From Candidatus Uhrbacteria bacterium RIFOXYB12_FULL_58_10 (lineage in GTDB: Bacteria; Patescibacteriota; Patescibacteriia; UBA9934; GWF2-40-263): a DNA stretch of 39,020 nt. The notes under the pieces are model-generated. The model saw nothing but the letters and a program-made list of their open reading frames with translations. It did not search any database and had not been told where the DNA came from. This document shows, in pieces, positions 6,419-37,752 of this stretch; the stretch's first letter is position 1; every line of letters starts with the position of its first letter. The DNA lies in contig MGFA01000024.1 in NCBI GenBank assembly GCA_001791645.1, positions 1 through 39,020 of the forward strand. Reading direction: 5' to 3'. The translations under genes and the position numbers were made by a program.

Positions 6419-6428
6419 GACGCCCCCC

Positions 6429-7691
6429 TCAGCTCAACGCCGACTTCAGGCTGTTGTAGGCGACCTGAGCGGCGTTGCGGTCGATGGAGCCACCAGCCGA
6501 GCTGGCGATCAGCGTGACCATGGCGGCCAACGCCGTGATCCAGCTCTGAACCTTGGTGTTCTCCGCGCCCGAAAGCGTTCCGACCTTGGTCGTCAACGCG
6601 GTCTTGCAGGTGTTGACCTGCGTGACCGCATTGGCCCACTGATTCGCCGTCCCCTGGCAGACCTGGTCCACGATCCCGCCGGTTGCTAGCAGCGTATCGA
6701 CCAGCTCGCGGCACTCCCCGAAGGGCGTGCGGCACAGCGGATCGACGATGGCCTCCAGGACCGGGATCTGCGACGAGTCGTTCCACAGGAGCCAGCGCAG
6801 GACCGTGAGATCCGAACTGGTGACCTGGGTCCGCCCGTGCATGAGGGCGTGGGCCTGGAGGACGTCGAAGACTCGGCCGAAGCGCCGGTCATCCTCCCAG
6901 ATCCAGCGGAACCCTTCGTCCTGGTCGACCAGATCCTGGTAGACATCCAGCACCTGATCGACAACCGACTCGGGAACGTCCACAAACGGACGCATCCCAC
7001 GGAGCAGGTCGACCTCTTGGAGGGTCAAACCTGCCTTCGACTGGGGAGTTGAGATTCCCCGCTGGTGATCCAGACGGGAGGTCACCAACCTGCGCTTGCC
7101 GACGGCATCCAGGGGATTCACTTTGACGCGCAGGATCATGCGCGCCCACGTGGCCCCCATCAGCCCGTCGGGATCGGGCAGCTCATTGCCCGCGGCCATG
7201 AACAGCCGCAGAGAGCTCCGAAGCTTCGCTCCCTCATGACGGACGGTGCCGTTGAGGGCGTAGTCGATGAGCTCCAAGAGCGCCGGATTCGTGGGATCCT
7301 TGAAGAACTCATCTCCAAAGAAGACGTGCGCCAGGAAGGCGCGCCCAAGAACCTGGTGGATATCCACCATCTTCTCTCCCTCGGCAACCGTCCTCTCGCG
7401 GATGGAGCTCGAGACCACGAGAATCTGATCCGCGCTCTTGACCTGCGGGATCAGCTCGTTGGCGAAGGTGGCAGAGAGAAGCCTCCCCACCATCTGCTCG
7501 ACCATCTGCGTCTTGTTGACGCCATAGGAGCCGAACAGGAAAACCGGGTAGCCGCTGATCAAACCCAGCCAGAAGGCCTTGGCCTCGCGCTGGCGATCGA
7601 TGTTGCGGATGAGTACGTCATCCGTGACGGCTCGGATCTTCGGAGCCAGCGCGATGGCGCCGGCGAAGTCGGGGGTCTGGGGCTGGGACAT
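6429..7691 (-). CDS. MoxR/RavA-type AAA+ ATPase (420 aa)
   Basis: Residues 25-300 are a AAA+ module of the MoxR/RavA clade. Walker A reads GSYGVNKT (54-61), where the family usually has GPPGTAKS. Walker B is VFFGDE (123-128) and sensor 1 lies in AAGNELP (166-172), which matches the RavA sensor strand closely. The C-terminal 120 residues are helical and unrecognised. ATPases of this clade form hexamers that work with a VWA partner, encoded here 10 nt downstream. The start is supported by AGGAGG five nt before ATG, and a hairpin abuts that Shine-Dalgarno sequence. The altered Walker A keeps the key Gly, Lys and Thr, so activity is plausible. Confidence 0.88.
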   Translation of the reverse strand: MSQPQTPDFAGAIALAPKIRAVTDDVLIRNIDRQREAKAFWLGLISGYPVFLFGSYGVNKTQMVEQMVGRLLSATFANELIPQVKSADQILVVSSSIRERTVAEGEKMVDIHQVLGRAFLAHVFFGDEFFKDPTNPALLELIDYALNGTVRHEGAKLRSSLRLFMAAGNELPDPDGLMGATWARMILRVKVNPLDAVGKRRLVTSRLDHQRGISTPQSKAGLTLQEVDLLRGMRPFVDVPESVVDQVLDVYQDLVDQDEGFRWIWEDDRRFGRVFDVLQAHALMHGRTQVTSSDLTVLRWLLWNDSSQIPVLEAIVDPLCRTPFGECRELVDTLLATGGIVDQVCQGTANQWANAVTQVNTCKTALTTKVGTLSGAENTKVQSWITALAAMVTLIASSAGGSIDRNAAQVAYNSLKSALS

Positions 7692-9859: not shown

Positions 9860-11092
9860 CTAAGCCTTGGCGAGGCCGACCGGTACGGTGATCATCCGTC
9901 CGATCTGCCAGTCGCCACCGGAGGCGACGACGACCGCCGGAGCTTCGCCCGGATGGGCATCACTCCAGGCACGCCCATCGGGCAGGGCCTGCCCGGTCTC
10001 GTGCAGCGCGAGCACGGCCACGGGGTGGCCGGCGCGGGCGTAGGCCGCGGCGACACTGACCATGAGCCAGTGTGGGCCGCGGCCGGACAGCACCACGGGC
10101 GCGCCCTGCGGGAGCACCGGGGGGTGGATCGCGGCGAGGTCGTCGACGCTGATCACTCCTCCGGGGATCGAGAAGGAGACGACGCGAACGCCATCGTGCT
10201 CCTCGACCCGCCACTGCAGACCGTCTGGCTCGATGGCGAGCTGGAGCTCCGGCACGAGGACGTACCCCAGCCGGATGTCCCAGAGCTCGACCGATCCGCG
10301 GGCGGCGCAGGCGAGCGCGGCGTAGAGCCACGAAGGCCCCGCGCCCCACACCCGGCAGACATCCCCGTCCAACGCCGCGCGGGAAAGCGCGACGCTGGGG
10401 GCGGCGTGCCAGGGACGGATACCCAAACGGGAGTCCTGCTCCGCAGTCGAGATCCCAAGTCCCTTGACCAGCCGTCCAGTGTGGACACCGGCCTCGAGCT
10501 CCCCGGGGGCGAACGCGATGCCTGCCAGCAATGTCAGGCACTGGACGAGCGCATCGATGACCGGGCTTTCCACCCGGGTCCCGCGCTCGAGTCCTGCCTG
10601 GGTACCGCTGATGACCTCGGCGTCGGGCTGACTGTCCAGGGATGACTCGCCGTGGAGCACGCTCCACAGCAGAGCCAGAGGCCTGCACCCCATGGCCTCA
10701 CCGAACTCGTGCCAGAGCTCGAGCTCGGATCGGCCGTCGGGACCGACCTTTTCGGGGTTGGCGAGCACGATGAAGGCATCGCACTCGCGGAAGATTCGCT
10801 GGTTTTCAGGCGAGCGAATCCCTCCGACGTCAACGAGCGTCACGGGCTGTTGAGCCTCACTCACACTCCGGATCACCCAGTCGACGAACTCTGGCGTGAA
10901 TTTTCCCTTCACGCGCAGATCGCCGACCAGATCCTGGTCGGTAGCACCGGCCCAGCCGCCCTCACCATCGGGACATCCTTCGATGACCCCGATGAGTCCG
11001 GTCGACAGCAGCCGATCTCTCAGCTGCTGGACGAAGACAGACTTCCCGCTATGAGGGGGCCCGCAGACAACTATCCTGAAAGACCTGGCCAT
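9860..11092 (-). CDS. P-loop NTPase fused to tandem Csx3-like domains (410 aa)
   Basis: Start: ATG at 11092 preceded by GGGAGG. Residues 1-150 are a P-loop domain with Walker A GPPHSGKS (11-18), a PDGEGGW motif (41-47), KGKFTPEFV (62-70) and a VTLVDVGG strand (84-91). The PDGEG and KGKFT motifs are features I associate with the Csx3-AAA fusions of type III CRISPR loci. Two segments then match the Csx3 core: GAGPSWLYAALA (250-261) with WDIRLG (271-276), and SGRGPHWLMVSVAAAY (336-351). Csx3/Crn3 proteins cleave cyclic tetra-adenylate. No cas gene or array is present here, so a CRISPR role is not supported. Binding of a cyclic nucleotide is an inference. It lies 28 nt after the 215-aa gene and probably shares its transcript. 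Confidence 0.72.
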   Translation of the reverse strand: MARSFRIVVCGPPHSGKSVFVQQLRDRLLSTGLIGVIEGCPDGEGGWAGATDQDLVGDLRVKGKFTPEFVDWVIRSVSEAQQPVTLVDVGGIRSPENQRIFRECDAFIVLANPEKVGPDGRSELELWHEFGEAMGCRPLALLWSVLHGESSLDSQPDAEVISGTQAGLERGTRVESPVIDALVQCLTLLAGIAFAPGELEAGVHTGRLVKGLGISTAEQDSRLGIRPWHAAPSVALSRAALDGDVCRVWGAGPSWLYAALACAARGSVELWDIRLGYVLVPELQLAIEPDGLQWRVEEHDGVRVVSFSIPGGVISVDDLAAIHPPVLPQGAPVVLSGRGPHWLMVSVAAAYARAGHPVAVLALHETGQALPDGRAWSDAHPGEAPAVVVASGGDWQIGRMITVPVGLAKA

Positions 11093-11120
11093 GCTGGCCT
11101 CCCTGTTTTGGTGGTGATGA

Positions 11121-11768
11121 CTAACAACTATACCCACAGCGCACGTGCCAACGGACGATCTTGCCCGTGCGCTGATTGGCTTGGTTGACCAGACAATACT
11201 GGCAACCAAGCCGACTACACGCGATGCACGCCGCCACCGCGTACCAGAGGGTTCTCTGCCCACAGTGCGGACAGGTCACGGCCTCCGGATGGTCGGCTCG
11301 TGCGTCCTGGCGCGTGCACGACACGACCGGCTCGAACCCCCACAGCAGAGCAAAGTCCTTCCAGAAGCCGTAGCTTGTGGAGAACTTCGCCATGGAGTCG
11401 GCGGGCTCGAGCTCCGAGGCGCGGCCAATGTAGGCAGTGAGGATCTTGTACTCCTCATCCACCCATGTCAGCGCGACCCGCACATACCGGCACGGCTCGG
11501 GCTCGCGATTCAGGACAAACCGCGTGAGGCCGGGCCGACCTGGGCGCTGGGCGTAAACGATGCTATCGCCCGGGCGAGTCGTGACACCGTTGGTCACTCC
11601 CACCACGCGACCCATATCGATCTCCACCAAGATGAACGTACGTCCATCTGAGGAGATGCGACCGAGCGCCTCGGGCAGGAGCTCTGCCACGCCCGCGTGC
11701 AGATGCGAATCTTCTAGATCTCGCACAAGCTCGCCGGAGGCGAGGCGCCAAACGAAGGAGGACACCAT
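11121..11768 (-). CDS. 215-aa protein: toxin-like domain plus Cys-rich tail
   Basis: The ATG at 11768 is preceded by GGAG six nt away. The longer upstream frame has no matching signal. Residues 35-120 match residues 45-140 of the 604-aa protein, with the same GLTRFVLNR and LTAYIG signatures, so the two are paralogous modules. The C-terminal 60 residues hold CPHCG, a CIAC pair, CQYC and a final CGYSC, which is enough for two zinc sites. The combination of a compact, possibly ribonuclease-like domain with zinc knuckles suggests nucleic-acid binding, but the function is unknown. The next gene, encoding the Csx3-like NTPase, begins 28 nt later. Confidence 0.7.
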   Translation of the reverse strand: MVSSFVWRLASGELVRDLEDSHLHAGVAELLPEALGRISSDGRTFILVEIDMGRVVGVTNGVTTRPGDSIVYAQRPGRPGLTRFVLNREPEPCRYVRVALTWVDEEYKILTAYIGRASELEPADSMAKFSTSYGFWKDFALLWGFEPVVSCTRQDARADHPEAVTCPHCGQRTLWYAVAACIACSRLGCQYCLVNQANQRTGKIVRWHVRCGYSC

Positions 11769-16330: not shown

Positions 16331-16365
16331 ATAAAAAAGAAAAATCCTCGTCAGGATGACGAGGA
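16331..16365 (-). terminator. intrinsic terminator overlapping the stop codon of the E2-like paralog 2
   Basis: A nine-bp stem TCCTCGTCA/TGACGAGGA (16345-16353 with 16357-16365) with a three-nt loop is followed on the minus strand by TTTTTCTTTTTTATT. The upstream arm encodes the last Ser codons, and the stop codon lies inside the hairpin. Confidence 0.93.
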
Positions 16366-19284
16366 GAGCTTAACGATTTCGAGATCGTCGGGATGCGCGT
16401 GCCATCCGGGATGGCTTGGAAAGTCGACGACCAGATGATCCGGTGCCTCCACCCTGACGATGACACCTTCGTCCATGTCCGTGACCGTTCCGCGCCGGTA
16501 CGCATGGACCACGCCCGCGCGAACGCGAACCATGTCTCCGATCCGCAGAAAAGCCGTTACCAGTTCCGAGAGTAGCCCTACCCATTCGGGTTCGCGGGGG
16601 AACGCCACGAGCGCGTCCTCACCGAGAACCTGGATAATGCGACCACGGTCAGTCGGTCCGACATTGCCCCATCCGCAAGAAGGGGTGATGCCGGGCTGAA
16701 CCGAGACGAAAGTCCCGACAGAGTGTGACACGGGCCCTTGCTTCCGTTCCTCCAGTTCCTCACGACGCATGACCGTGAGGTTCTTGATCATCGTGACGCC
16801 GACTCGGAGCGGCCCAGAATCTGGACGGCATTTTTCGGGGATATCCATATACCCCCTATCATCGTCCCTGGCTGGATCAAGTACGCCATGGGCATCGCAC
16901 AGAACGTACAGAAGATTGTCGCTGATTTCCACGACAATGCCCGTTGCCCCGTCACGAATCGATGCGCCTCGGCCCCAGCGGTACCCGCGATCCACGCGGA
17001 CGACGTCACCGACACGGACCATCACATTGGAATCTTCGGTCAGCGTTGAATTGGGAGCCAGCCTTTCGATCTCATCACGCATCTGGCGCAGGTCATCCGA
17101 AAGAGTGATCTCCTGACCATAATCGTCCACGAAGCGAATGGCGCGCCGCGAAGACGACATCTGCGACGAACGTTCCGGCAAGCCAGATACCCTTATGACC
17201 AGCCGTGAAGAATTCGTCAGGCTTACCGGATCCCCACCAGGATGAATCCGCACCTTGATCGGATGTTGCTGGCAGCACATAGACACGAATTCGACGATCC
17301 TGGGTCCGAATGAGGAACCGCTGATTCGCTTGAGGACCGCCTGGTCATTTCCCATGTATTCGAGGAGAGTCCCTTCCTCGTACGGCCCTGCCCAACTCGA
17401 CGGCTTCATTTCCATGGATGGCAAGCCGGTCAGGTCGGCCGATCGAAACCGCCTTCTTGAACCGTCCTCGGCCATGACCTCGAACAGCGACATTCCTTGC
17501 CGCCCGAGCGGAAACTGTACGCCGTTCGTGAACTCAATCGCGGGAATGCCGCGCGTAGAGATGACCACGCCATTCACCTCGAGGATTGTTCCTGCTTCCA
17601 ATTCACCGCAGCGCTTGGCGACGCGCAGACGCATTCCTCGAACAATCGTCAGTGGGCCGTTGCTCCATTCCGACCGCAACAGCCTGTGTTTGAAGGGCAC
17701 CCATGCACCGTCACGGATGACGGGAATGGGCTCGTTGCACGGATCGAGGACAAGATCCGTATCGCACGGATCTGCGCCTGGTCGAACATTGCGCTTGAAC
17801 CCGATAACCTTCATCGTGACGACATGTCTATTGTCGCCTGAAAAATCGAGGACCATGCCGTCGCTGCCACTGAGATCAAGCGTACGATCAAGAAACCTCA
17901 CGCGGCGCTCGCTGCGTTCGAACGGAATCACCTCCCAGGAAAACGTGAAGACGCCGCCGGCAAACAGAACCTCATGCTCAGATACGCCCTCAAAGTCGAC
18001 GTACACCATACTCAGTGTGGTATCCGACGACCAGAGGCGCGCAACGACAACCACGGATCCCCGTTTCCGTCCGTTGTGCAGACGAATGACGGAACCGACT
18101 CGGAGCTCAGACATGCCGAACCGAAATGCTTCGGCGGTCAGAACCGGACGCATCGCGGACACACCGTGAAGGAGCGTCCCGCCGTCCATGGTGATCCAAA
18201 ACCAGAATCCTCCGACCTGCACCTGAACGTCAGCGTCAGCGTCTAGCCGGATTTCCATCACCGAATACTCGGTACCAACCGAGAGACGAGGCCCGCTGTC
18301 GTCCGTGACCATGAACCGTGACCCCTTTCCCCACACCGTTCCGTTCGCGTCGGTCCACGTTTCCAGGCTCTTCCATTCCTGTTGCCGGGCGGAAATTGGC
18401 GTGACTCCGCGGTTCAGATGAACTGGCGAACCGATCCCTTCCGCACGCAGAGCGACAACGATGCCCTTCGCGTCCTGATAGAACCCAGTCACGACGACCC
18501 TGCGATCGTTCGCTGTCACCTCGTCTCCGAGCCGGACCAACGATTTCGTCAGGAAGATCTCGCGAACTGGGCTTTCCGACAAATCGGCCGTGACGTCGTT
18601 TCTCTCTGGCGGTCGCCGTTCCAACGCGTCAACGAGAATCTGGAACGCGACGTCTTCCACCTGGGTCCCATCGACGCTTCCGGCGGCCGTCTGTTCAAGG
18701 GTACGCGCGCTTGCCGGCCACTTCTGGGAAAGCAGACTGAGCGGATCGTGTTCGCTCATTTCTCGCCAGCTCGTCAGTTCAGAGACGACTGGAACCTGGA
18801 TACGAACGACGCTGGAGAACTGGGGGAACGGTCGCGACCAGAACGCGTCGATGACCGCGGACAATCGATCCGCCAACGTTTCGCCGAACGAGAATTCGCG
18901 AACGACGTTCAAGTCACTTACGGAGATCTCGGGAATTCCGACGTCGAACAGGTAGTCCGAACGCGCGCGCAAGGGGTGCGATCGAAAGTACACTCGAATC
19001 GATTCCACGGCATCGCCACGCGCCAGGACAAGGAACACGACGTACGGAAACGCGAGATTGACTGTTCCCTCGGTCGACGGCCAAATCACCTCGCGCGTTC
19101 CAGGCGGTTGCTCGATGACGTACACGTCTTGACTTGGCAGGCTGAATACCTGCCGACAGCCGCGCGGAAGAAGCCTTGATCGAGCACTCGCGAACAGCCC
19201 CGCGAGACGCCCTTGGACGACGAGGGGAACGCCATCCCTGGTCAGCTCAACGGAACCGTTTTCGAGAACCAGAATGTTGTTCAT
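16351..19284 (-). CDS. E2-like (PRTRC-B type) domain protein with SH3-like repeats, paralog 2, Cys lost (977 aa)
   Basis: The start is the ATG at 19284 (MNNILVLENG). An upstream frame has no support. Residues 60-200 resemble the E2 family D / PRTRC protein B domain: the LAFPYVVFLVLA strand, VYFRSHPL, DYLFDVGIPEIS, and the later VIDAFWSRPF helix. The Cys that follows the Asn in the family is absent, so this copy is probably inactive as a conjugating enzyme. A long run of beta-rich barrels follows. The last ~170 residues carry SH3-like units with CGWGNVGPTDRGRI, VRVRAG and VVDFPSHPGWHAHP, resembling the repeats of Mind bomb and KEG. It is a full-length paralog of the neighbour at 19371 and has its own promoter and terminator. 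Confidence 0.68.
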   Translation of the reverse strand: MNNILVLENGSVELTRDGVPLVVQGRLAGLFASARSRLLPRGCRQVFSLPSQDVYVIEQPPGTREVIWPSTEGTVNLAFPYVVFLVLARGDAVESIRVYFRSHPLRARSDYLFDVGIPEISVSDLNVVREFSFGETLADRLSAVIDAFWSRPFPQFSSVVRIQVPVVSELTSWREMSEHDPLSLLSQKWPASARTLEQTAAGSVDGTQVEDVAFQILVDALERRPPERNDVTADLSESPVREIFLTKSLVRLGDEVTANDRRVVVTGFYQDAKGIVVALRAEGIGSPVHLNRGVTPISARQQEWKSLETWTDANGTVWGKGSRFMVTDDSGPRLSVGTEYSVMEIRLDADADVQVQVGGFWFWITMDGGTLLHGVSAMRPVLTAEAFRFGMSELRVGSVIRLHNGRKRGSVVVVARLWSSDTTLSMVYVDFEGVSEHEVLFAGGVFTFSWEVIPFERSERRVRFLDRTLDLSGSDGMVLDFSGDNRHVVTMKVIGFKRNVRPGADPCDTDLVLDPCNEPIPVIRDGAWVPFKHRLLRSEWSNGPLTIVRGMRLRVAKRCGELEAGTILEVNGVVISTRGIPAIEFTNGVQFPLGRQGMSLFEVMAEDGSRRRFRSADLTGLPSMEMKPSSWAGPYEEGTLLEYMGNDQAVLKRISGSSFGPRIVEFVSMCCQQHPIKVRIHPGGDPVSLTNSSRLVIRVSGLPERSSQMSSSRRAIRFVDDYGQEITLSDDLRQMRDEIERLAPNSTLTEDSNVMVRVGDVVRVDRGYRWGRGASIRDGATGIVVEISDNLLYVLCDAHGVLDPARDDDRGYMDIPEKCRPDSGPLRVGVTMIKNLTVMRREELEERKQGPVSHSVGTFVSVQPGITPSCGWGNVGPTDRGRIIQVLGEDALVAFPREPEWVGLLSELVTAFLRIGDMVRVRAGVVHAYRRGTVTDMDEGVIVRVEAPDHLVVDFPSHPGWHAHPDDLEIVKLSSSS

Positions 19285-19327
19285 GTGCATCTCACTTGTG
19301 AAGGATCCCACACGCGTGGGACGGGTC

Positions 19328-19356
19328 GTCTTATCATATCGTACCCGATGCGTCAA
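19328..19356 (-). promoter_or_regulatory. promoter of E2-like paralog 2
   Basis: TTGACG (complement of 19351-19356), a 17-nt spacer and TAAGAC preceded by TGA (extended -10). The -35 directly follows the U-run of the preceding gene's terminator. Confidence 0.6.
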
Positions 19357-19357
19357 T

Positions 19358-19385
19358 AAAAAAGCCCCCGTCAGGTCAACGGGGG
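19358..19385 (-). terminator. intrinsic terminator overlapping the stop codon of E2-like paralog 1
   Basis: A seven-bp CCCCCGT/ACGGGGG stem (19365-19371 with 19379-19385) is followed on the minus strand by CTTTTTTATT. The stop codon lies in the loop, as in the paralog's terminator. Confidence 0.9.
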
Positions 19386-22300
19386 GATTGCTACGATCTC
19401 AAGCTCGTTCGGATGCGCGTGCCATCCGGGATGGCTTGGAAAGTCGACGACAAGGTGCTGGCTGGTCGACCGCGAGACGACCGTGCCTTCCTCTTCACGT
19501 TGCGCGTCGCCCGGTCCGTACAGCGGGATGGCACTGGCACGAATCCGGACACGGTCTCCGACCCGTGGATCGGCGCGTACCAGATCCGATACCAAGAACT
19601 TCCGCTCCGTTCCGTTCGAAAACGTGATGGATGCCTCATCGGAAAAAAGTTGCGTGACCCTTCCCCGATCGTTCGGACTGACACCCCCCCAACCGAACCT
19701 CGGCATAGCCTCGGGCTTTACGGAAACGAAGGAACCGGGTTCGATTGATTCCGTGCTTCCGCCGTTCGGTACAAGACGGACGACTCCATTCGACTTGTTC
19801 AGGCATACCCGCTCTTTTTTCGGTGAATTCCTGTACTCCACCGGCACGTTCTCGTATCCACTCGTATAGCCATACCGATGCGCGGGAATCCTGACATCCT
19901 CCGGCATGCAATACAGATATAACATCTCGTTCGAGGGGGCGTACGAAACGACCAGCGCGACAGCGTCCCTCATGACGCTCCTTCCTCCATCACTCCAGTC
20001 CGTCGGATACTGCGCCAGAACGAAGTCGCCAAAGTGCAGCTGAACCTTATCGACATCTTTTCCGCAGGGATGCGGCGCTCCGGTCGTTTTTCTGTGTTCA
20101 CGATGCAGTTCTTTGGGAATCGGGATCTCAGGACCCGAACGCATCACGCCAAACAAGCCAACAATGGTCACGAACTTCCGATGGGCCTCGGCGATCACTC
20201 GCGCGACGTACTTCCGATATACGCCATCGTACGTCATCCCACCGATACGAATTTTGAGCGTCCTGTCATCGACGTTGCTGTACACGACCGTCGCGATCTT
20301 CCCGCGATGCTCCTCGGGAACGGAGGCGGAACCACCGAGATACCGTACGACTTCATCACGCACATAGCGCCTGTTGACGATCGCCCCGTTGGGAAGCGAC
20401 TCACAGTCAGTCTCGGAGAGGGGATCGAACCGATTCGTTCCGACGACACGCTCAATCCTCATGGTTCCGGCGACCCGGCTGTCCAGTTCGATGGATCCTC
20501 CGTCCGAAAACACGATCTCCACGCGGCCGGATTTCCCATTGCAGAAACAGAGGATCTCGAACGTTTCCCCTGCATCCAGTCCGAGAATGTCTTCCGAAAC
20601 GAACCGAACGCGCTGGCCTCGGCTCAACGTGCATTCTGGCAACGCGTGCGTGATAGCACACGGCTCGCCCTCGAGCCCGACCCATTCGCTGTTCCGAATG
20701 ATCGGAATGGCCGCGTTATATGGCACGACCTCGAGCGAGAGATCAAGCGGATGTCCGGCGTTCTCGGAAACGCACCAACCCCCGACCTCGACCACCACGC
20801 CTTTCGAAAGCAGCAGGTGCGATACATCTCGGAGGTCGAGACAATTTTTTCCAAGGACGACATGACGTTCGTTCAGCTCAAAAATCAGTGGGTTCCATGA
20901 AAACTGAAGCGCACCGTTCGAACAGATGTTCAGTTCACCGCGTCCCTCGAACGTGGCCGCGTACGTGCCTGGTGCCTCGAGCCGCTCCCAGATGTTCGTG
21001 ACGCGCGTCAGAACGCCTTGCAACATGCCCGCTTCGCCAACCCGCAACCGGAAGTCGTCGAAGGTGAACGTGCCAGCAGAAAGCTCCGGAAAGAGAAGCC
21101 GAACCGACGGCAGCAGCGTTCCACCGCCGTAAGTGACGAATATCCATCTCGGATCGGTTTTGCCGAAGAGGATCTCTACGTCACCGTCAGGGTCGACCCG
21201 CAGATCACCAATCTCGTAGACCTTGCGCGTATCGACGTCCGCGAGGTCTTCGCAGCTCGTAAAGCGGAAACGAAGTCCCACCGAAAGCCGCAGTCGCTCG
21301 ATCGTGTCAGCGGCAGCGCGCTTGGGATCAACCGCTTCCGTGTCACGATCCCTGCCCGTCAACTCGAGAAGCGACACGGCGCGCGAAACGCCGGTGAGCG
21401 CCACGTACCGTATGCCGGCTTTGCTAACCTCATAGAAGTGAGCGACCGCGTACGCCTCGCCCGCGTTGAGTCCGGCACCCGGATCGTCTATTTGGGAAAC
21501 CAACTCGGTTCCGATCTCGATCACCTTGCCATTGTGGATGACGGCGACTGATTCGCACATCAGGAGATCACCCTCGCGCTCGGCGGCGGGACGCCACAGA
21601 GGTGCCGTGCGCGCGGCGGCGAGCATCTCCTGAAATCCGAAGCGCATGCTTGCGCCACCATATTCACGACGCCATTTTTCGATGATTTCCCACAGCGCAA
21701 CCGGAAACGGAAGCATGGGCGCGTCGAGAACCCACGACGGATTGCGACGGCTCCAGTGCTCCCACTCCCAGACGGACCGCAATCGTGGAACTTCCGTTCC
21801 ATATTTCGTCCACCAGGTAGACCAATGGTCGTTGAACGCGGTTGCCCAGAATTCTTCGACAACCCGTTCAACGGCGCGCGGCCCATCCGAAAGTCGGACG
21901 GCAGGAATATCCTTGAAGCAGATCTTCCCCGTGTCCGCGTGAATGTTCGTCGTCCAAGGCCAGAACAAGGGCTCGCGCAGGTCATGCAACGGACCAGGGC
22001 GAACGAACAAATGCGCGTCGCGCATTCCCGTATCCTTCATGTAGACCACGAAGATCATGTAAGGAAATGCGAGACGGAACTGGTTTCGAGTCCTGTCCGC
22101 AGGCGTGAGATCGAACTTGGGAAGCCCGCCGGCATGCACGAGCTCGTCCCATCCGGTACCGTACTTCCATGTCACAGAGCGCACCTGGGGAGGACACTCG
22201 ACGACGAAGATGTCCTCGTGCGCTCCAGACTCGTGGAACACGCACCCTTCCGGGAAGGTCTTCGAAAGCATCGACGGCGGGAGCAGCGCCTTTCCGTCTA

Positions 22301-22418
22301 CGGTCCTGCGAAGAAGCTTGATCCTTCGAGCGTCCGGACCGTCCTTTATTCGGTCCATCTCAAGCGTTGCCGTGCCATCATCGGTGAAGATGATACGCGA
22401 TTCGTCACGAATGGACAT
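19371..22418 (-). CDS. E2-like (PRTRC-B type) domain protein with SH3-like repeats, paralog 1 (1015 aa)
   Basis: The ATG at 22418 follows AGAGGAAA. The track's longer frame would start inside the -35 box. Residues 110-220 match the E2 family D / PRTRC protein B pattern: RLAFPYMIFVVYM, a VRPGPL turn, LFWPWTTNIHADTGKICFKD with the presumed catalytic Cys in GKICF, and the VVEEFWATAFND helix. Such domains are thought to carry a ubiquitin-like protein as a thioester. The C-terminal 700 residues are repeated small barrels. The last ones show FGWGGVSPNDRGRVTQ, VRIRA and VVDFPSHPGWHAHP, closely like the Mind bomb/KEG SH3-like repeats that bind E3 substrates. E2-like catalysis plus substrate-recruiting repeats in one chain is the inferred design. 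Confidence 0.7.
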   Translation of the reverse strand: MSIRDESRIIFTDDGTATLEMDRIKDGPDARRIKLLRRTVDGKALLPPSMLSKTFPEGCVFHESGAHEDIFVVECPPQVRSVTWKYGTGWDELVHAGGLPKFDLTPADRTRNQFRLAFPYMIFVVYMKDTGMRDAHLFVRPGPLHDLREPLFWPWTTNIHADTGKICFKDIPAVRLSDGPRAVERVVEEFWATAFNDHWSTWWTKYGTEVPRLRSVWEWEHWSRRNPSWVLDAPMLPFPVALWEIIEKWRREYGGASMRFGFQEMLAAARTAPLWRPAAEREGDLLMCESVAVIHNGKVIEIGTELVSQIDDPGAGLNAGEAYAVAHFYEVSKAGIRYVALTGVSRAVSLLELTGRDRDTEAVDPKRAAADTIERLRLSVGLRFRFTSCEDLADVDTRKVYEIGDLRVDPDGDVEILFGKTDPRWIFVTYGGGTLLPSVRLLFPELSAGTFTFDDFRLRVGEAGMLQGVLTRVTNIWERLEAPGTYAATFEGRGELNICSNGALQFSWNPLIFELNERHVVLGKNCLDLRDVSHLLLSKGVVVEVGGWCVSENAGHPLDLSLEVVPYNAAIPIIRNSEWVGLEGEPCAITHALPECTLSRGQRVRFVSEDILGLDAGETFEILCFCNGKSGRVEIVFSDGGSIELDSRVAGTMRIERVVGTNRFDPLSETDCESLPNGAIVNRRYVRDEVVRYLGGSASVPEEHRGKIATVVYSNVDDRTLKIRIGGMTYDGVYRKYVARVIAEAHRKFVTIVGLFGVMRSGPEIPIPKELHREHRKTTGAPHPCGKDVDKVQLHFGDFVLAQYPTDWSDGGRSVMRDAVALVVSYAPSNEMLYLYCMPEDVRIPAHRYGYTSGYENVPVEYRNSPKKERVCLNKSNGVVRLVPNGGSTESIEPGSFVSVKPEAMPRFGWGGVSPNDRGRVTQLFSDEASITFSNGTERKFLVSDLVRADPRVGDRVRIRASAIPLYGPGDAQREEEGTVVSRSTSQHLVVDFPSHPGWHAHPNELEIVAIPPLT

Positions 22419-22461
22419 GGGTTTCCTCTTGTGAAGGTGCATCCGCTTGCGCGGAGAAATC

Positions 22462-22490
22462 GTTCTAACAAACTTCGGTGTCCCTGTCAA
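22462..22490 (-). promoter_or_regulatory. promoter of E2-like paralog 1
   Basis: TTGACA (complement of 22485-22490), a 17-nt spacer and TAGAAC (complement of 22462-22467). The transcript would carry a leader of about 40 nt with an AGAGGAAA ribosome-binding site. Confidence 0.7.
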
Positions 22491-22499
22491 TGCGTAACA

Positions 22500-22527
22500 A
22501 AAGAAAAACCGGCCTAGGAGGGCCGGG
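22500..22527 (-). terminator. intrinsic terminator of the ubiquitin-like operon
   Basis: CCGGCC (22509-22514) pairs with GGCCGG (22521-22526). GGTTTTTCTTTTG follows on the minus strand, 15 nt after the stop of the ubiquitin-like gene. Confidence 0.88.
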
Positions 22528-22541
22528 TGTTGGGACGGGTA

Positions 22542-23015
22542 CTACCTGCTACGGGCAGCCTTGTCCCCGCTGGGCTTCACGAACTCGAGCGAATCGCCCG
22601 GGCTCAAGACACTGTTCGCGTTCGCGGTCAGCCCGTTGACGCGCGGAACGAAGGCCTGGCCGATGTTCAGCGCCTCGCGGAGCTGCTCGCGAAGCTGCGC
22701 GACGGTCTGGCCTGCCGCGATGACGTCGAGGGACGCCGCGCCGCACTGGACCGTGATCTTCTTCTCGCCCTGGACGTCGTCGTCGTCCTCCTCCTCGTCG
22801 TCGTCCAAGGCGTCGATGCCCTGCCGTGCCATGCCGGCAGGCTGGGCTTTGACCTCGACGGTCGCTTGCTGCTGTTGCTGCGCCTGCAGGATGCGTTCGA
22901 TCAACTCCGAGCCTTGCGTGCCGTTGTCGAACTCGACGCCACAGTCTCTTGCAATGTGCCGAAGCTCAAGCTTGGTCTTGGCTCCGAGCTCGGACCGCGT
23001 GAACCTCTTGTTCAT
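22542..23015 (-). CDS. SAP plus ubiquitin-like beta-grasp protein (157 aa)
   Basis: The ATG at 23015 overlaps the stop of the E1-like gene in an ATGA, so translation is coupled. Residues 7-45 fit a SAP/HeH helix-extended-loop-helix (TKLELRHIARDCGV, then SELIERILQ). Residues 70-83 are an almost pure Asp/Glu linker. Residues 85-148 form a beta-grasp unit: KKITVQCG, a VAQLREQLREAL helix, VNGLTANANSVL and GDSLEFVKP, as in ThiS/MoaD/ubiquitin-like proteins paired with ThiF and JAB. The protein ends SGDKAARSR without a Gly-Gly. A single Gly at 150 could be exposed if the JAB protein trims the tail. The role as the conjugated tag is inferred from the operon. Confidence 0.75.
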   Translation of the reverse strand: MNKRFTRSELGAKTKLELRHIARDCGVEFDNGTQGSELIERILQAQQQQQATVEVKAQPAGMARQGIDALDDDEEEDDDDVQGEKKITVQCGAASLDVIAAGQTVAQLREQLREALNIGQAFVPRVNGLTANANSVLSPGDSLEFVKPSGDKAARSR

Positions 23016-23728
23016 TCCTTCTCCTCTGCGCTCGCATTGCGAGCAATCGGGTTCACCCTTCCAGCCACCATGTCGAAGTAGAATTCTCCGATTGACGGCC
23101 GCCGGGCGAACGTGTCGTCCGTGGTGAGCAGGTAGAACACCCACGACATGAGGGTGGCCACCGTCTGGTTGGCGAAGAAGAGCTGCGGCGCCGAAGCGCG
23201 CGCGCGTTCCTCGCACCCCATCTCGTGCGGGGATTTGTCGGCCGGGTTGGCCGTCTCCTCGTGTACCTGGCAGAGCGAAAGGGTAGTGTCCCTTCCGCCG
23301 CGCCTGGCGTAGACCTGGACGTTGCCGTCCGTGTAGTCGTTACCACCGTTCACGAGGGTCGCATCTTGCAGCGTTCCGACGTGCTTGTCAAGAAGCTTTC
23401 TTGTGGTGTGGTTGTCCACGGCCGAGAATACGATCGCGCCCTCGCCGATCAGCATGTCGACGTTGTCGGGCGTGACGTACTCGGGAAACGGCACGAACCT
23501 TACGCGGGGGAACTCCTCCAAAAGCGCCTCCGTCGTCACCTCGGCCTTGTTCCCGAAACGTCCGAATAACTGACGCGGGGCATTGCCTTCCTCGTAGTTG
23601 TCTCCGTCCGCAACGGTGACGACGATCTCGTCGAAGACCGGTGGGAGGTATTGGCAGTAGCGCCCCAACATGGGAGCAAGCGCGCTGCCGACGCCGCCGG
23701 CGCCGACAATTACGATGTCGAGTTTCAT
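23012..23728 (-). CDS. ThiF/E1-like adenylating enzyme (238 aa)
   Basis: The Rossmann fold of the ThiF/MoeB/E1 superfamily is clear: GAGGVGS at residues 9-15, an acidic pair (D41, D43) at the end of strand 2, N49/R52/Q53 in the ATP-binding NAPRQLF, K61, and the SAVDNHTTR strand with D105. Cys candidates for a thioester are C153 and C172. Enzymes of this family adenylate the C-terminus of a ubiquitin-like protein. It overlaps the JAB gene by 4 nt and the ubiquitin-like gene by 4 nt, so the three are made together. The length and the lack of a second domain resemble the ThiF protein of PRTRC modules rather than eukaryotic E1. Confidence 0.87.
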   Translation of the reverse strand: MKLDIVIVGAGGVGSALAPMLGRYCQYLPPVFDEIVVTVADGDNYEEGNAPRQLFGRFGNKAEVTTEALLEEFPRVRFVPFPEYVTPDNVDMLIGEGAIVFSAVDNHTTRKLLDKHVGTLQDATLVNGGNDYTDGNVQVYARRGGRDTTLSLCQVHEETANPADKSPHEMGCEERARASAPQLFFANQTVATLMSWVFYLLTTDDTFARRPSIGEFYFDMVAGRVNPIARNASAEEKE

Positions 23729-24777
23729 TTCTCGTTGTCCTCGTCGCTTGGTGCGAGCTGGGTGTAATCGGACGGTTCCTTATCGAACCGGTCGATTTTG
23801 GACGGAATGACCCCGAAGAAGTTTCCGAATGCATCATCCGCCCACGCCGTGACGGCACTGATGAACGCATTCCTGGGCGGCTTTCGTTCGAACGCCTGGT
23901 CGCAGTGCGGAGAAACCGGAGTTCCCGTGATGACGATGCTCGTCTTACGCGGTGGCGGTGGCACGTGAACCTTGTCCATCCACTCGGGCGGGCACGGGTA
24001 GTCGTCGAGCGTCCGTCCATCGTGGAACTTGAACGCAAAACCCTTTTCCTTGTGCAGGTAGTCCACAGGAACGACCCGCCTTTTCGCCTGTTGCGCGGCC
24101 GTCCCCTTCGTCGTTGCTGGCACGAGTACCGAAACCGACTCGTACCGCGTGACCCTTACGACGGATTCCGCCGGCGTGATACCGCCGACATACTCGTCGG
24201 GCCCCTTCAGAAACCGATGGCCGTTGACCACAACGGACGCGCTCATGGTCGGGACGTCACGCGTGATATTGCCCACGGTGACGTGCAGTCCGTCCCAGTT
24301 CATCTCGTCATTGTGGTCCCCGCCGCTGTGAAACGCGGAGAAGTCACAGTGCGAGTGGACTGTTCCGGCCCTCAGCCATCCGGGCCCGATCTCCAGGTCG
24401 TCCTCGTAGTGAACGCCCCCGCCATGGCCACGCTGCATGGGCGCGACCGCCTGCCACTCGCGGGTCGCCGGACAATAGAGGAGGATCACGACCGCTTCGG
24501 CCTTCTGCCGAGCGAAAACCGCCCGGAAGAAGACGAGAATCTGGGCGAATAGTTCCATCGGAACCTTCGTGACGTCCAGCTCGCCACACATTTCCTGTGG
24601 CTTGAGCATCGGGATGTTCTCCACCCTGACGATCGCCTCCACGATGCCGACCTTCTTGCGAAGGAAGACGCCGTTGCACGCGACGATGTAACACAGAGGC
24701 ACGTCGTCGGGGATCGGTTCGTCCCCGCGCGCCCTCACGATGACCGGAATTCCGGTCGAATGTACACTACGTTTCAT
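23725..24777 (-). CDS. JAMM/JAB-domain metallopeptidase (350 aa)
   Basis: Residues 85-170 hold a JAB/MPN domain with the complete JAMM zinc motif: HSH at 141-143, S151 and D154, giving H-x-H-x7-S-x2-D, plus a likely catalytic Glu at E94 in AEAVVIL. JAMM enzymes cleave isopeptide bonds of ubiquitin or trim ubiquitin-like precursors. The remaining 180 residues are beta-rich and basic and end in an acidic tail. They are unrecognised. The gene starts inside the end of the RuvB-like gene (11-nt overlap) and overlaps the E1-like gene by 4 nt. Removal of the tag or maturation of the ubiquitin-like protein encoded two genes on is the expected job. Confidence 0.87.
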   Translation of the reverse strand: MKRSVHSTGIPVIVRARGDEPIPDDVPLCYIVACNGVFLRKKVGIVEAIVRVENIPMLKPQEMCGELDVTKVPMELFAQILVFFRAVFARQKAEAVVILLYCPATREWQAVAPMQRGHGGGVHYEDDLEIGPGWLRAGTVHSHCDFSAFHSGGDHNDEMNWDGLHVTVGNITRDVPTMSASVVVNGHRFLKGPDEYVGGITPAESVVRVTRYESVSVLVPATTKGTAAQQAKRRVVPVDYLHKEKGFAFKFHDGRTLDDYPCPPEWMDKVHVPPPPRKTSIVITGTPVSPHCDQAFERKPPRNAFISAVTAWADDAFGNFFGVIPSKIDRFDKEPSDYTQLAPSDEDNEK

Positions 24778-25930
24778 CGGAACCTCGTGAGATGACGTTG
24801 CGTCCCTGAGGCGTGCGCGCGATGAATCCGCGACGCACGAGCCATGGCTCGATGGTGTCTTCGACTTCGCTCGCTTCCATGTCGAGCGCCTGCGCGAGCG
24901 TGCGCAGGCTTGCCCTGCCCATGCCGGCGAGCGCTATCATGTATCGGCGCTCGTCTTCGTGGAGTCCGTCCTCCCCGAAACCGTTGAGCATGAGCGTTCG
25001 CCGCGCCTCGTCGATGCCGACGGAGGCGAGACCGCGCGCGACCGCGGTTTCGGAGAGCTGCAGGAGCAGGTGGTTGAGCGAACGCGGGTTGTCCCGCGCG
25101 TGCGCCACCAGAAGCCGCAGCACGTCGTCGTCGGCCGCAAAGCCAAGCATCGACGCGCTCCGGCGCGCGATCCGCAGCATCTCTTCCTCCGTGTAGAAGG
25201 GGAGGCGATACGGACGACCGAACCGATTGCGGAACGGCTCGAGCAGCTTGGCCGGGTTGGTGGTCGCGGCGACGATCGTCACCTTGGGCGCAGGGACTTC
25301 CGTTTGCACGGATGTGCCGCGCCTGGTTTCGACGACCGGCACTCTTCCGTCTTCCATGATGCCGTAGAGCGTCTCCTGTGCCGGGCGCGACATGCCGTGT
25401 ACCTCGTCGATGAACACGAGGCTCCCGGACGTCCAGCGGACGGCCGCCTGCACCACGTCCGCCGGCTTGCGGAGCTGGCTGCCGACGAGTACCTGCGCGT
25501 CGACGCCGAGCTCGTGCGCCATCGCGAGGGCGAGCGTGGTCTTTCCAAGTCCGCGCGGCCCTGAGAAGAGAACGTGCTGAAGAGGACGATTCCGCATGCG
25601 TGCGGCCAGGATCGCGTCGGTCATCATCTCCTTGAATGGAGCGTGGCCGACCACCTGGTCGAACGAGGCGGGCCGCAGGCGGCCATGGGCATCGCCCGTG
25701 ACCGAGATCCGCGTGACCGTGTCGGCGCGAATCGCGGACGCGAGCGCGCGGCACACTGGCACCGGAAGACCGGTGTCTTTGAGGTCTTCCGCCTCTATGG
25801 ACGCGGCGACAGCTGGCAGACCGACGCCGAGTTCGGCAAGCCTGGCCAGAACCCCCTCCACGCCGTCGGAATTTCCGACTGACGCGAGATAAGGACGAAC
25901 GATTTCCTCGACAACCCTTCGAACGGACAT
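24767..25930 (-). CDS. RuvB-like AAA+ ATPase with N-terminal helical domain (387 aa)
   Basis: The ATG at 25930 is preceded by GGAG six nt away. A TTG 12 nt upstream is less likely. Residues 5-70 form a helical, SAM/HhH-like domain (GLPAVAASIEAEDLKDTGLP) that also opens the protein at 26075-26965. Residues 88-330 match RuvB: SFDQVVGH, Walker A GPRGLGKTT (124-132), Walker B FIDEVH (173-178), sensor 1 AATTNPA (221-227) and an FRNRFG arginine-finger region, then a winged-helix C-terminus. True RuvB is shorter at the N-terminus and lies near ruvA or ruvC. Here it heads an operon with the JAB, E1 and ubiquitin-like genes, so it is probably a dedicated remodeller. Confidence 0.83.
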   Translation of the reverse strand: MSVRRVVEEIVRPYLASVGNSDGVEGVLARLAELGVGLPAVAASIEAEDLKDTGLPVPVCRALASAIRADTVTRISVTGDAHGRLRPASFDQVVGHAPFKEMMTDAILAARMRNRPLQHVLFSGPRGLGKTTLALAMAHELGVDAQVLVGSQLRKPADVVQAAVRWTSGSLVFIDEVHGMSRPAQETLYGIMEDGRVPVVETRRGTSVQTEVPAPKVTIVAATTNPAKLLEPFRNRFGRPYRLPFYTEEEMLRIARRSASMLGFAADDDVLRLLVAHARDNPRSLNHLLLQLSETAVARGLASVGIDEARRTLMLNGFGEDGLHEDERRYMIALAGMGRASLRTLAQALDMEASEVEDTIEPWLVRRGFIARTPQGRNVISRGSDET

Positions 25931-25977
25931 GAGTCGCTCCAAAGGAACATCCGCCGCACAGCGCGGCGGAAGGGGTC

Positions 25978-26006
25978 GTTTTAGCGCACAGGCCCCAAAT
26001 TGTCAA
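25978..26006 (-). promoter_or_regulatory. promoter of the ubiquitin-like operon
   Basis: TTGACA (complement of 26001-26006), a 17-nt spacer and TAAAAC (complement of 25978-25983). A GCCGCGCTGTGCGGC hairpin lies in the leader, about 20 nt before the start codon. Confidence 0.7.
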
Positions 26007-26020
26007 GGAATCCCGCGGGA

Positions 26021-26046
26021 TAAAAAAGAGCAGCGCCTGGCGCTGC
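26021..26046 (-). terminator. intrinsic terminator of the 296-aa gene
   Basis: A perfect seven-bp GCAGCGC/GCGCTGC stem (26030-26036 with 26040-26046) with a three-nt loop is followed on the minus strand by TCTTTTTTAT. Confidence 0.92.
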
Positions 26047-26074
26047 GTAGAGGGTCTCGCGCTGGCCTCGTGGC

Positions 26075-26965
26075 CTAGCGCTTCTTGTCGACGGACTGAC
26101 GGCGATCGATCGGCTTCACGAGCACGATCGGGCGACCGGTGTTGGCCCACTTCTCGGCCTGGAGGATGGCGTCGGCCCAGTAGCCCCCCCTGATGTCATC
26201 GAGCGCCTGGAACATGAGGTCGATGCGCGCATCGCCGGACGGAGGAGTCTCGCCCCAGACCTCCTGCGTCTGCAGGTAGGCCAACTCGCGTGCCGGACGC
26301 TGGATCTCGGACCAGCCGCGGTGGCAAGCGTTGCAGAACTCGGCTTCGCCGACCAGGTGGTTACCGTGGATCGGGCAGATCGAGAGCGCCTGGTCCGGCA
26401 ATTCGCCGGCACGATGCAGCTCGACCATCTTGCCGTTGACCGAGGTCCGGCTGCCGACGTCGATGCCCTGCTTCAGGAGCATGAGGAGCGCGAGGCTGCG
26501 TTCGACGTCGATGCGCAGGCTGGCTTTGTCCGCGAACACGATGAAGGGCTTGTTTTCCGCCCGTCGGTTGAGCGCGCTGATGATGTCGTCACGACCCATC
26601 GGCTGGTAGTTCGCCAGGAGGAGGCCGTCGTTCAGGGAGTCCACGTTCCCGATCGCGAGCGCGAGCTCGGCGATACCCCCCTGCAGTCCGCCGATCTGCA
26701 CCATCGGATCGCCGGCCTTGGGCTCGGCGGCCGGAGCGGGAGCTGCGGGGGCCGCGCGCCAGAGGTTCGCGATCGCGCGGGCCACGGGCATCGGCACGCC
26801 GGCGCCGGCGATGTCCTCGAAGCTGATCTCCGCGGCGATGGCCGGGACGCCGGCGCCGAGCCCGATCAGCTTGGTGACGACGGCTTCGATGTCGATGCGC
26901 CTGTCGTCCGGCAGCGACGCGTTGAATTCCGCCAGCAGGCGGGAGATGCCTTCCTTACGGTGCAT
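26075..26965 (-). CDS. helical-domain plus zinc-ribbon protein (296 aa)
   Basis: The ATG at 26965 follows AGGAG. Residues 5-70 align with the N-terminal domain of the RuvB-like ATPase next door (G(V/L)PA(I/V)AA and (V/L)P(M/V)PV.RA(I/L)A in both). A Pro/Ala linker follows, then an alpha/beta part with PFIVFADKASLRIDVERSL. A C-P-I-H...C-N-A-C group (residues 197-214) is a probable zinc ribbon. Sharing a domain with the ATPase suggests the two proteins meet through it, as an adaptor or substrate-recruiting subunit. It has its own promoter and terminator just upstream of the operon. The function is not known. Confidence 0.68.
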   Translation of the reverse strand: MHRKEGISRLLAEFNASLPDDRRIDIEAVVTKLIGLGAGVPAIAAEISFEDIAGAGVPMPVARAIANLWRAAPAAPAPAAEPKAGDPMVQIGGLQGGIAELALAIGNVDSLNDGLLLANYQPMGRDDIISALNRRAENKPFIVFADKASLRIDVERSLALLMLLKQGIDVGSRTSVNGKMVELHRAGELPDQALSICPIHGNHLVGEAEFCNACHRGWSEIQRPARELAYLQTQEVWGETPPSGDARIDLMFQALDDIRGGYWADAILQAEKWANTGRPIVLVKPIDRRQSVDKKR

Positions 26966-36803: not shown

Positions 36804-36832
36804 AAGGTACGCGAAACAACGCCGCGTGTCAA
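36804..36832 (-). promoter_or_regulatory. promoter of the GNAT gene
   Basis: TTGACA (complement of 36827-36832), a 17-nt spacer and TACCTT (complement of 36804-36809). The -35 overlaps the last codons of the recombinase gene. Confidence 0.7.
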
Positions 36833-37752
36833 TTCTGCTTCCCGTGGAACTTCTTATGAATGTCCTTGAGATGCGCATTCGTGACATGCGTATAAATTTG
36901 CGTCGTGGTGATGGACGCGTGGCCGAGCATCGACTGCACGGAACGAATGTCTGCGCCGTTCATAAGCAGATCGGTCGCGAACGTGTGCCGAAGCGTGTGC
37001 GGAGTAATGCGCTTTGTAATTCCCGCGGCCCTGGCATAACGCTCCACCAAACGCTGGACGCTGCGCGGGGTGAGCGGACCCGCGTTATCCCGTCCGCCCT
37101 TGGCGCGGTCATGAGAAACAAACATGTACGGCGACGCGTCCCGACGTTTATCGAGATACGCCTTGATGGCCGCCTTCGCCATGTCAGACAGAAATACTAC
37201 GCGAACCTTGTCGCCTTTCCCGCGCACCGTAAATTCGTCGCGCCTCAGGTTCACCTGATCGATTTTTAAATTAGCAAGCTCGCTGACGCGCAGACCTGTC
37301 GCAAAAAGAAGCTCCAAAATTGCCTTATCGCGCAACGCGACCAACCCTTCGCTCTCACGCATCGGTACCGCGAGAATGCGGTCAAGCTCGTCAGGTTCCA
37401 AAAATGACACGATGCGCGAGGGAGCCTTCGAAAGCTCGATCTGCTCAGCCGGCAACGACTTCACGTCACGACGCGAAAGGAACTTTAAAAAGGAGCGCAA
37501 CGCGATGAGATGATAGTTTTGCGTGGACTTTTTTATGAGATCCTCGTCGCGCCCGGGCACGTCGCGATTAAGCCAAAGCCGGTACTTGTGAATCAACTCA
37601 CGCGTGATCGCTGACGGCTTCGGATGCTTGGCCCACGTCGCAAACCGGCGCAAATAAAAATCATAATTCTCAATCGTGCGACGCGAACGTCCGCGATCCA
37701 CTTCCATGTATTCGAGAAAATCCGTAATCCGTTTGTCAATCTCATGCAACAT
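36829..37752 (-). CDS. XerC/XerD-type tyrosine recombinase
   Basis: The 307-residue protein has a SAM-like N-terminal core-binding domain (FLEYMEVDRGRSRRTI) and the catalytic domain with all six residues: R in TGLRVSEL, K in VRGKGDKVR, H-x-x-R in HTLRHTF, H in LGHASI and Y in TTQIYTHV. Length and motif spacing fit the chromosomal dimer-resolving XerC/D recombinases rather than phage integrases. A single Xer in this size of genome would act on a dif-like site, which is not in this window. A TATAAT -10 lies nine nt before the ATG and no Shine-Dalgarno is seen. Confidence 0.92.
   Translation of the reverse strand: MLHEIDKRITDFLEYMEVDRGRSRRTIENYDFYLRRFATWAKHPKPSAITRELIHKYRLWLNRDVPGRDEDLIKKSTQNYHLIALRSFLKFLSRRDVKSLPAEQIELSKAPSRIVSFLEPDELDRILAVPMRESEGLVALRDKAILELLFATGLRVSELANLKIDQVNLRRDEFTVRGKGDKVRVVFLSDMAKAAIKAYLDKRRDASPYMFVSHDRAKGGRDNAGPLTPRSVQRLVERYARAAGITKRITPHTLRHTFATDLLMNGADIRSVQSMLGHASITTTQIYTHVTNAHLKDIHKKFHGKQN

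Follow-up and report, generated by a model that had tools for sequence, protein, structure and literature searches.

A ubiquitin-like conjugation cassette predicted in a Patescibacteria genome and its relatives in large phages

Does a run of seven genes in an ultra-small bacterium encode the means to attach a ubiquitin-like protein (Ubl) to other proteins and to remove it again, and where are the nearest relatives of such a cassette to be found? The question is raised by contig MGFA01000024.1 of Candidatus Uhrbacteria bacterium RIFOXYB12_FULL_58_10, which (positions 1 to 39,020 of the forward strand, hereafter the window) contains genes for a Ubl, an activating enzyme (E1), a JAMM/JAB peptidase, two large proteins related to conjugating enzymes (E2), a RuvB-like AAA+ ATPase and a zinc (Zn) protein. 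On the evidence set out below, the cassette is rather probably a reversible Ubl-protein conjugation system, homologous to yet distinct from PRTRC/type-6d modules and of common ancestry with cassettes of large tailed phages, its largest novelty being the viral connection together with an E2/pseudo-E2 pair bearing HERC2/Mind-bomb-type repeats.

Components of the cassette

The core enzymes are recognised by profile searches. E1 matches Pfam ThiF (2.2e-16) and NCBIfam PRTRC_ThiF (1.2e-11), the latter outscoring the ThiF/MoeB equivalogs, and its adenylation residues and one Cys are invariant across 15 homologues; JAB matches PRTRC_A (1.5e-6) and has an intact JAMM motif (H-S-H-x7-S-x2-D), the residues of which are retained in 12 of 13 cases. 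Both fall short of the curated PRTRC models, E1 with 44.4 bits against a cut-off of 144.75 (PRTRC_ThiF, TIGR03736) and JAB with 27.9 bits against 101.8 (PRTRC protein A, TIGR03735). The window Ubl matches Rho_N over its head (4e-4) and ThiS over its core (1e-3, the best core match in Pfam). In a structure model of a family member (locus L027, not the window Ubl itself) the beta-grasp core is confident, and nearly all of the best PDB matches are to ubiquitin, SUMO, NEDD8 or carriers related to them (probability 1.0, E only about 2e-3), so that the Ubl family is beta-grasp as judged by this model. The Ubl profile does not match PRTRC_C and HHalign did not join the two (Prob 5), because of which their relationship is argued from fold, tail and linkage alone; for Prok_Ub, a search without a positive control gave no match in the genome.

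The Ubl tail is conserved beyond the window. All five window-clade Ubls end in GDKA, with four further residues (ARSR) in the window protein only; Ubls of the Patescibacteria family carry GxK[GA], those of plasmid PRTRC cassettes GTKG or GAKG, in some cases extended, and of the 67 viral Ubls 63 carry xxKG (41 without extension, 22 with 1-9 extra residues). A conserved tail followed by variable short extensions is what would be expected of a tag trimmed by a peptidase. A Ubl resembling two tandem beta-grasp units, with the tail GEKG, is encoded at L028:11953-12384.

Large proteins A and B are paralogues with 26% identity. Profile searches with the window proteins alone gave no E2 family match, Pfam Prok-E2_D matches two of 19 relatives (best 1.9e-5), and PRTRC protein B (TIGR03737) gives no match for the window protein and one among 18 relatives (0.0015). 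Their N-terminal 300 amino acids (aa) align with PRTRC_B/Prok-E2_D proteins (HHalign Prob 95, E 2.5e-8), the partners being plasmid PRTRC_B and proteins annotated as 'prokaryotic E2 ligase family D'. Type-6d E2s are described with an active Cys and a downstream His (Iyer et al. 2006, PMC1779556), to which the N...[IV]-C motif and the His of FNDHW in large protein B correspond; in five of five clade genomes one paralogue has both residues and the other has lost both, and by these residues only large protein B is predicted to be capable of E2 catalysis. In the AlphaFold model of the E2 (mean pLDDT 84), a beta meander is succeeded by a Cys loop and then by helices. The C-terminal ~125 aa of both large proteins form two SH3-type repeats with a profile match to HERC2 at 5.8e-10; the Mind bomb/HERC2 SH3 repeat PF18346 reaches 9e-5 at best, in a relative, and stays below the Pfam gathering score in the window proteins (18.7 bits against 24 for protein B). 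A 103-nucleotide (nt) direct repeat, 79% identical, lies at the 3' ends of both large genes (window 16335-16437 and 19355-19457) and may have arisen when the last SH3 repeat was recently duplicated or underwent gene conversion.

The ATPase is a RuvB-domain protein with RuvB_N (5.6e-37), the RuvB_C winged helix, Walker A GPRGLGKTT and Walker B FIDEVH, and it matches solved RuvB at E 2e-61. It is 36% identical to a separate canonical RuvB of the same genome and scores 235 bits against the cut-off of 282 of the NCBIfam RuvB equivalog, so that by this cut-off it is not a true RuvB. The N-terminal ~70 aa of the AAA protein form a domain that recurs in the Zn protein (HHalign Prob 97.6, E 2.6e-12); a SAM-domain assignment for it found no support in Pfam or PDB searches and was dropped. 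The Zn protein, for which Pfam, NCBIfam and PDB gave no match, is conserved in L007, L009, L010 and partly in L166; a scan of 84,980 genomes returned it from three only, all with the cassette, and in one genome (G020) its gene adjoins the E2 pair on another contig.

These results bear out much of the original prediction. All seven genes lie on the minus strand of the window and the middle four overlap as an operon, as had been proposed (AAA/JAB by 11 nt at 24767-24777, JAB/E1 by 4 nt at 23725-23728, E1/Ubl by 4 nt at 23012-23015), and the beta-grasp Ubl, the ThiF/E1-like enzyme, the JAMM peptidase with its full motif and the RuvB-like ATPase have all been recognised; the RuvB paralogue and the ~1000-aa E2 fusions stand as the new elements that they were taken for. 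The claim of two E2-like proteins of PRTRC-B type holds for profile homology to Prok-E2_D, while an E2-like active Cys is present in the upstream protein (B) only.

Relatives in Patescibacteria, plasmids and viruses

E1 was found in six of the 43 genomes of the family, the window's included. Five of these, all of Uhrbacteria type, keep the full set: besides the window, the complete order Zn-AAA-JAB-E1-Ubl-E2-pseudoE2 is repeated in L007, L009 and L010, and in the fifth genome the set is divided between two contig ends (L008 and L166); the sixth (L011) has a short form. The expectation that the genes stay together in relatives is thereby upheld, and because of this linkage the cluster cannot be put down to chance. 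Short E2-JAB-E1-Ubl forms, which lack the AAA and Zn proteins, also occur in about 10 scattered families of the wider class and phylum, and an E2-like protein is present in nearly every complete set. One Patescibacteria genome holds two tandem E2-JAB-E1 copies (L049:2-5871), with no Ubl recognised beside either. Among plasmids, a tblastn search with the window E1 gave one weak record and one with the homologue from G220 gave PRTRC plasmids, the cassettes of which are accompanied by ParB-family genes; in Polaromonas JS666 a MoxR AAA gene lies slightly downstream of plasmid PRTRC (L066:7462-8502), a further AAA in the vicinity of a related cassette.

IMG/VR, searched with a broad E1 profile, yielded 75 loci (L071-L149) in 74 viral contigs of 18-527 kb, with 67 distinct E1 sequences and the exact order E2-JAB-E1-Ubl at 54 loci. 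Since a terminase match was obtained in 31 of the 46 contigs tested (23 above the Pfam cut-off) and ribosomal S11 in none of the 46, most of the cassette contigs are taken to be truly viral. The viral E2s measure ~850 aa. The E1 tree unites Patescibacteria and viral rows in a clade that excludes the plasmid PRTRC/6d rows (100/96); the neighbours of the window clade (96/100) are 51 viral rows, with moderate support (90/88, the bootstrap not having settled). The head domain of window-clade Ubls recurs in at least 37 viral Ubls and in no other Patescibacteria Ubl, and a few E2s from viruses and other Patescibacteria have the beginning of the E2 tail in common. Judged from these comparisons, the nearest relatives most likely lie in large phages, the cassette being shared by descent, with transfer in one direction or the other. 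On a 60-kb viral contig (L073), MIB_HERC2-domain proteins directly follow the cassette (best 8.5e-11); tandem small proteins are encoded at L073:13085-14756, three of the four scanned having a MIB_HERC2 match. Named phages contain distant ThiF relatives only, one of them with a neighbour annotated PRTRC_A, and the search for a viral RuvB-like partner returned only general RuvB-like proteins (25-33% identity). The large-phage E2-JAB-E1-Ubl cassette seems to be widespread and unreported: no report of it was found in the literature searched, subscription papers and preprints being outside that search.

Proposed function and competing explanations

In the conjugation cycle that we favour, the JAMM enzyme would first trim the Ubl so that it ends in GDKA and afterwards strip it from its targets; E1, to judge from its conserved residues, would adenylate the Ubl C-terminus and hand it to Cys172, from where large protein B would take it on its active Cys and pass it to target lysines. 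The paired loss of Cys and His suggests that large protein A is an inactive E2 variant which partners large protein B in the way that Mms2/UEV partners Ubc13, and the HERC2/Mind-bomb-type SH3 repeats on both large proteins may choose or hold the substrate, a job like that of a ligase (E3). The RuvB-derived ATPase, joined to the Zn protein via the shared N-terminal domain, would pull apart or load DNA-bound complexes; that such complexes are the targets is suggested, as a lead only, since the Ubl head is of DNA-binding type (Rho_N/SAP) and the ATPase is RuvB-derived. No proteasome-family protein was detected in any of the six genomes (the search being positive in 10 of 14 controls), which makes proteasomal degradation unlikely, and tagging is probably regulatory or disruptive instead. 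Because Patescibacteria genomes are reduced, retention of ~10 kb argues that the system is in use. The complete cycle of tagging, attachment and removal named in the original prediction has its PRTRC-like gene set in place, the cassette's own remodeller being putative. A fuller scenario, tentative and somewhat short of an even prospect, would have one Patescibacteria lineage add to a phage-shared conjugation system a UEV-like pseudo-E2, E3-like HERC2/Mind-bomb modules, an Ala-ended tag and a RuvB-derived motor with zinc adaptor, as a bacterial counterpart of a tag-writer-eraser-segregase set.

Several observations weigh against reversible conjugation as proposed here. The window-clade Ubl ends in Ala and not in Gly. 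Structure comparison did not bear out an E2-like fold in the large proteins: a Foldseek search of the PDB with the E2 model retrieved no E2 and nothing below E 0.5, and the only matches to the model were phage proteins, four of them, from BFVD (E 2.8e-8 to 8.6e-4); for this reason E2 kinship is by profile only, and 'E2' is here a statement of homology at the family-D level and not of structural resemblance to the eukaryotic enzymes. No viral cassette and no other Patescibacteria cassette found includes the AAA or the Zn protein, which are therefore dispensable for the core reaction; the patchy presence of the cassette in the family means that it, too, can be dispensed with.

Part of the same evidence would fit a sulfur-carrier pathway, in which a ThiS/MoaD/CysO-like Ubl receives a thiocarboxylate from E1 and JAMM releases the product, as in CysO-Mec+. 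E1-Ubl-JAB without E2 is a known sulfur-transfer design, the best core match of the Ubl in Pfam is ThiS, and E1 resembles ThiF/MoeB; however, E2-like proteins accompany nearly all complete sets, the tail reads GxK[GA] instead of GG, the cassette contains no sulfurtransferase or biosynthetic enzyme, and E1 scores higher with PRTRC_ThiF than with the ThiF/MoeB equivalogs, all of which leaves this pathway very improbable. That the ATPase and the Zn protein merely happen to lie next to the Ubl genes and do not act with them also appears quite unlikely: their absence from the other cassettes and the terminator-like hairpins that set the Zn-protein gene apart speak for it, but the AAA gene overlaps JAB and heads the core operon, the gene order recurs in L007, L009 and L010, the G020 Zn-protein gene lies beside the E2 pair, and in the scan of 84,980 genomes the Zn protein is confined to cassette-bearing ones.

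Two further explanations concern the purpose of tagging. DNA maintenance, as supposed for plasmid PRTRC, would have the Ubl modify replication or partition proteins and the RuvB-like ATPase act on DNA junctions; we hold it unlikely, as the genome has its own RuvB, the RuvB-like protein bears a novel N-terminal domain and no ParB-like match was obtained among the genes scanned, against which stand the ParB-family genes beside plasmid PRTRC cassettes, the Rho_N/SAP-like head and the RuvB winged helix of the ATPase. Phage-related conflict, that is, a virus-exchanged module tagging phage or host proteins in defence or superinfection exclusion in the manner of BilABCD or CBASS type II, is a serious possibility although not an even one; it is a statement of role and is compatible with conjugation. 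The same cassette at 75 viral loci, the E1 clade adjoining viral clades, the Ubl head domain and E2 tail piece held in common with viral homologues, the patchy distribution and the presence in the window of a MoxR/vWA pair like those of ternary systems and of a Csx3-domain protein favour such a role, while the cassette's neighbours are housekeeping genes and PADLOC called no defence system (E1-E2 models at E 0.016 at best).

If reversible conjugation is what the cassette performs, bacterial Ubl conjugation reaches into ultra-small Patescibacteria and into large phages, in which it is seemingly common; with the viral cassettes one can test whether host or virion proteins are tagged by bacterial viruses, and a catalytic/dead E2 pair with HERC2/Mind-bomb-type repeats on the E2 bears on the origin of E2 variants and of E3 substrate modules.

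Layout of the locus and comparison with known systems

The window corresponds to contig 24 in a genome of 1.12 Mb and 28 contigs, estimated at 100% completeness; the features of the cassette are collected in Table 1. Terminator-like hairpins stand 3' of the Zn-protein gene, the Ubl gene and both large genes, owing to which the transcription units are probably Zn, AAA-JAB-E1-Ubl, E2 and pseudo-E2; the total of 14 such sites against 10.1 +/- 3.5 expected from shuffles is not significant in number, and their position is suggestive. No promoter of sigma-70-like type was detected. For both large proteins an internal ATG is the probable start, at 22418 (B) and about 19284-19290 (A), the former because the listed TTG lies upstream of all homologous starts and directly after a terminator-like hairpin.

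Table 1. Positions of the cassette genes and associated elements in the window
Feature	Position	Strand	Remarks
Zn protein	26075..26965	-	296 aa; N-terminal ~70-aa domain common with AAA protein; CPxHGxH...FCxxC at ~26324-26377
Terminator-like hairpin 3' of Zn-protein gene	26030..26046	-	
RuvB-like AAA+ ATPase	24767..25942	-	likely start ATG 25930; extra N-terminal domain ~25718-25930
JAMM/JAB peptidase	23725..24777	-	PRTRC_A-like N-terminal region; HSH-x7-S-x2-D at ~24316-24357
E1/ThiF-type activating enzyme	23012..23728	-	adenylation residues conserved; invariant Cys172 at ~23213-23215
Ubl	22542..23015	-	157 aa; Rho_N/SAP-like head ~22866-22991, acidic linker, beta-grasp core, tail GDKA + ARSR
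Ubl C-terminal tail	22545..22568	-	conserved GDKA (22557-22568), then 4-residue extension ARSR
Intrinsic-terminator-like hairpin CCGGCC-CTCCTA-GGCCGG-TTTTT	22509..22526	-	closes AAA-JAB-E1-Ubl operon
Large protein B, predicted catalytic-type E2	19371..22418	-	1015 aa from ATG 22418; listed open reading frame start TTG 22490
Large protein B residues			Cys codon ~21918-21920; His of FNDHW ~21825-21827; C-terminal SH3 repeats ~19374-19778
Large protein A, predicted pseudo-E2	16351..19290	-	no Cys, no FNDHW His; C-terminal repeats ~16354-16725; listed open reading frame start TTG 19356

The housekeeping genes flanking the cassette are holA, a laccase-domain protein gene and polA. Farther away, a vWA (CoxE-like) gene adjoins a bpMoxR AAA gene (window 4634-7691), resembling MoxR-vWA-beta-propeller ternary systems, and has among its neighbours proteins of 441-752 aa without family match. 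A 467-aa protein (window 9860-11263) contains a Csx3 domain (Cas_csx3, E 3e-8), Csx3 being a CRISPR type III ancillary family, and at 36829-37752, ~10 kb from the cassette, a Phage-integrase-family recombinase (1.7e-46) is encoded, which could be Xer-type.

Among known systems, the RuvB Holliday-junction motor has the AAA+ core, sensor motifs and winged helix in common with the window ATPase, which differs in its extra N-terminal domain common with the Zn protein and in being a dedicated paralogue beside Ubl genes. The operon of Caldiarchaeum subterraneum likewise unites Ub, E1, E2 and a JAMM (Rpn11-like) enzyme (PMC5654768, PMC6043591), but with eukaryote-type E1/E2 and a RING E3, whereas a family-D E2 and no proteasome were found here. 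BilABCD and CBASS type II (Cap2/Cap3) are bacterial systems of Ubl or Ubl-like conjugation with E1, E2 and JAB peptidase, their E1 being a two-lobed or E2-E1 fused enzyme (PMC11354881, PMC10097602), unlike the stand-alone E1 of the window.

With PRTRC and the type-6d operons (PMC1779556) the cassette shares the Ubl K-G tail, a family-D E2 with downstream His, an N-extended JAB, a stand-alone ThiF-type E1 and the order E2-JAB-E1; it departs from them in its ~1000-aa E2s with a pseudo-E2 twin, its RuvB-like AAA and Zn proteins and its chromosomal, not plasmid, location. Pfam showed no ParB-related protein in the cassette or in the flanking genes scanned, these being part of the window's open reading frames. 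Since every curated PRTRC cut-off tested was missed, the set is, by its sequences, a remote homologue of the PRTRC/type-6d kind and not to be filed as PRTRC, and it is as remote homology that the likeness to PRTRC modules and Iyer-type operons noted at the outset persists; the broader type-6d class, with linked stand-alone E1, JAB, E2 with Cys and His and a small Ubl, does accommodate it, with the exception of the C-terminal Ala. The large-phage cassettes have E2 first, mostly a single E2, no AAA or Zn protein and the tail GRKG/GKKG against GDKA; yet they are closest to the window cassette by the E1 tree and have the same core genes, the same Ubl head and tail and a long beta-rich E2 tail.

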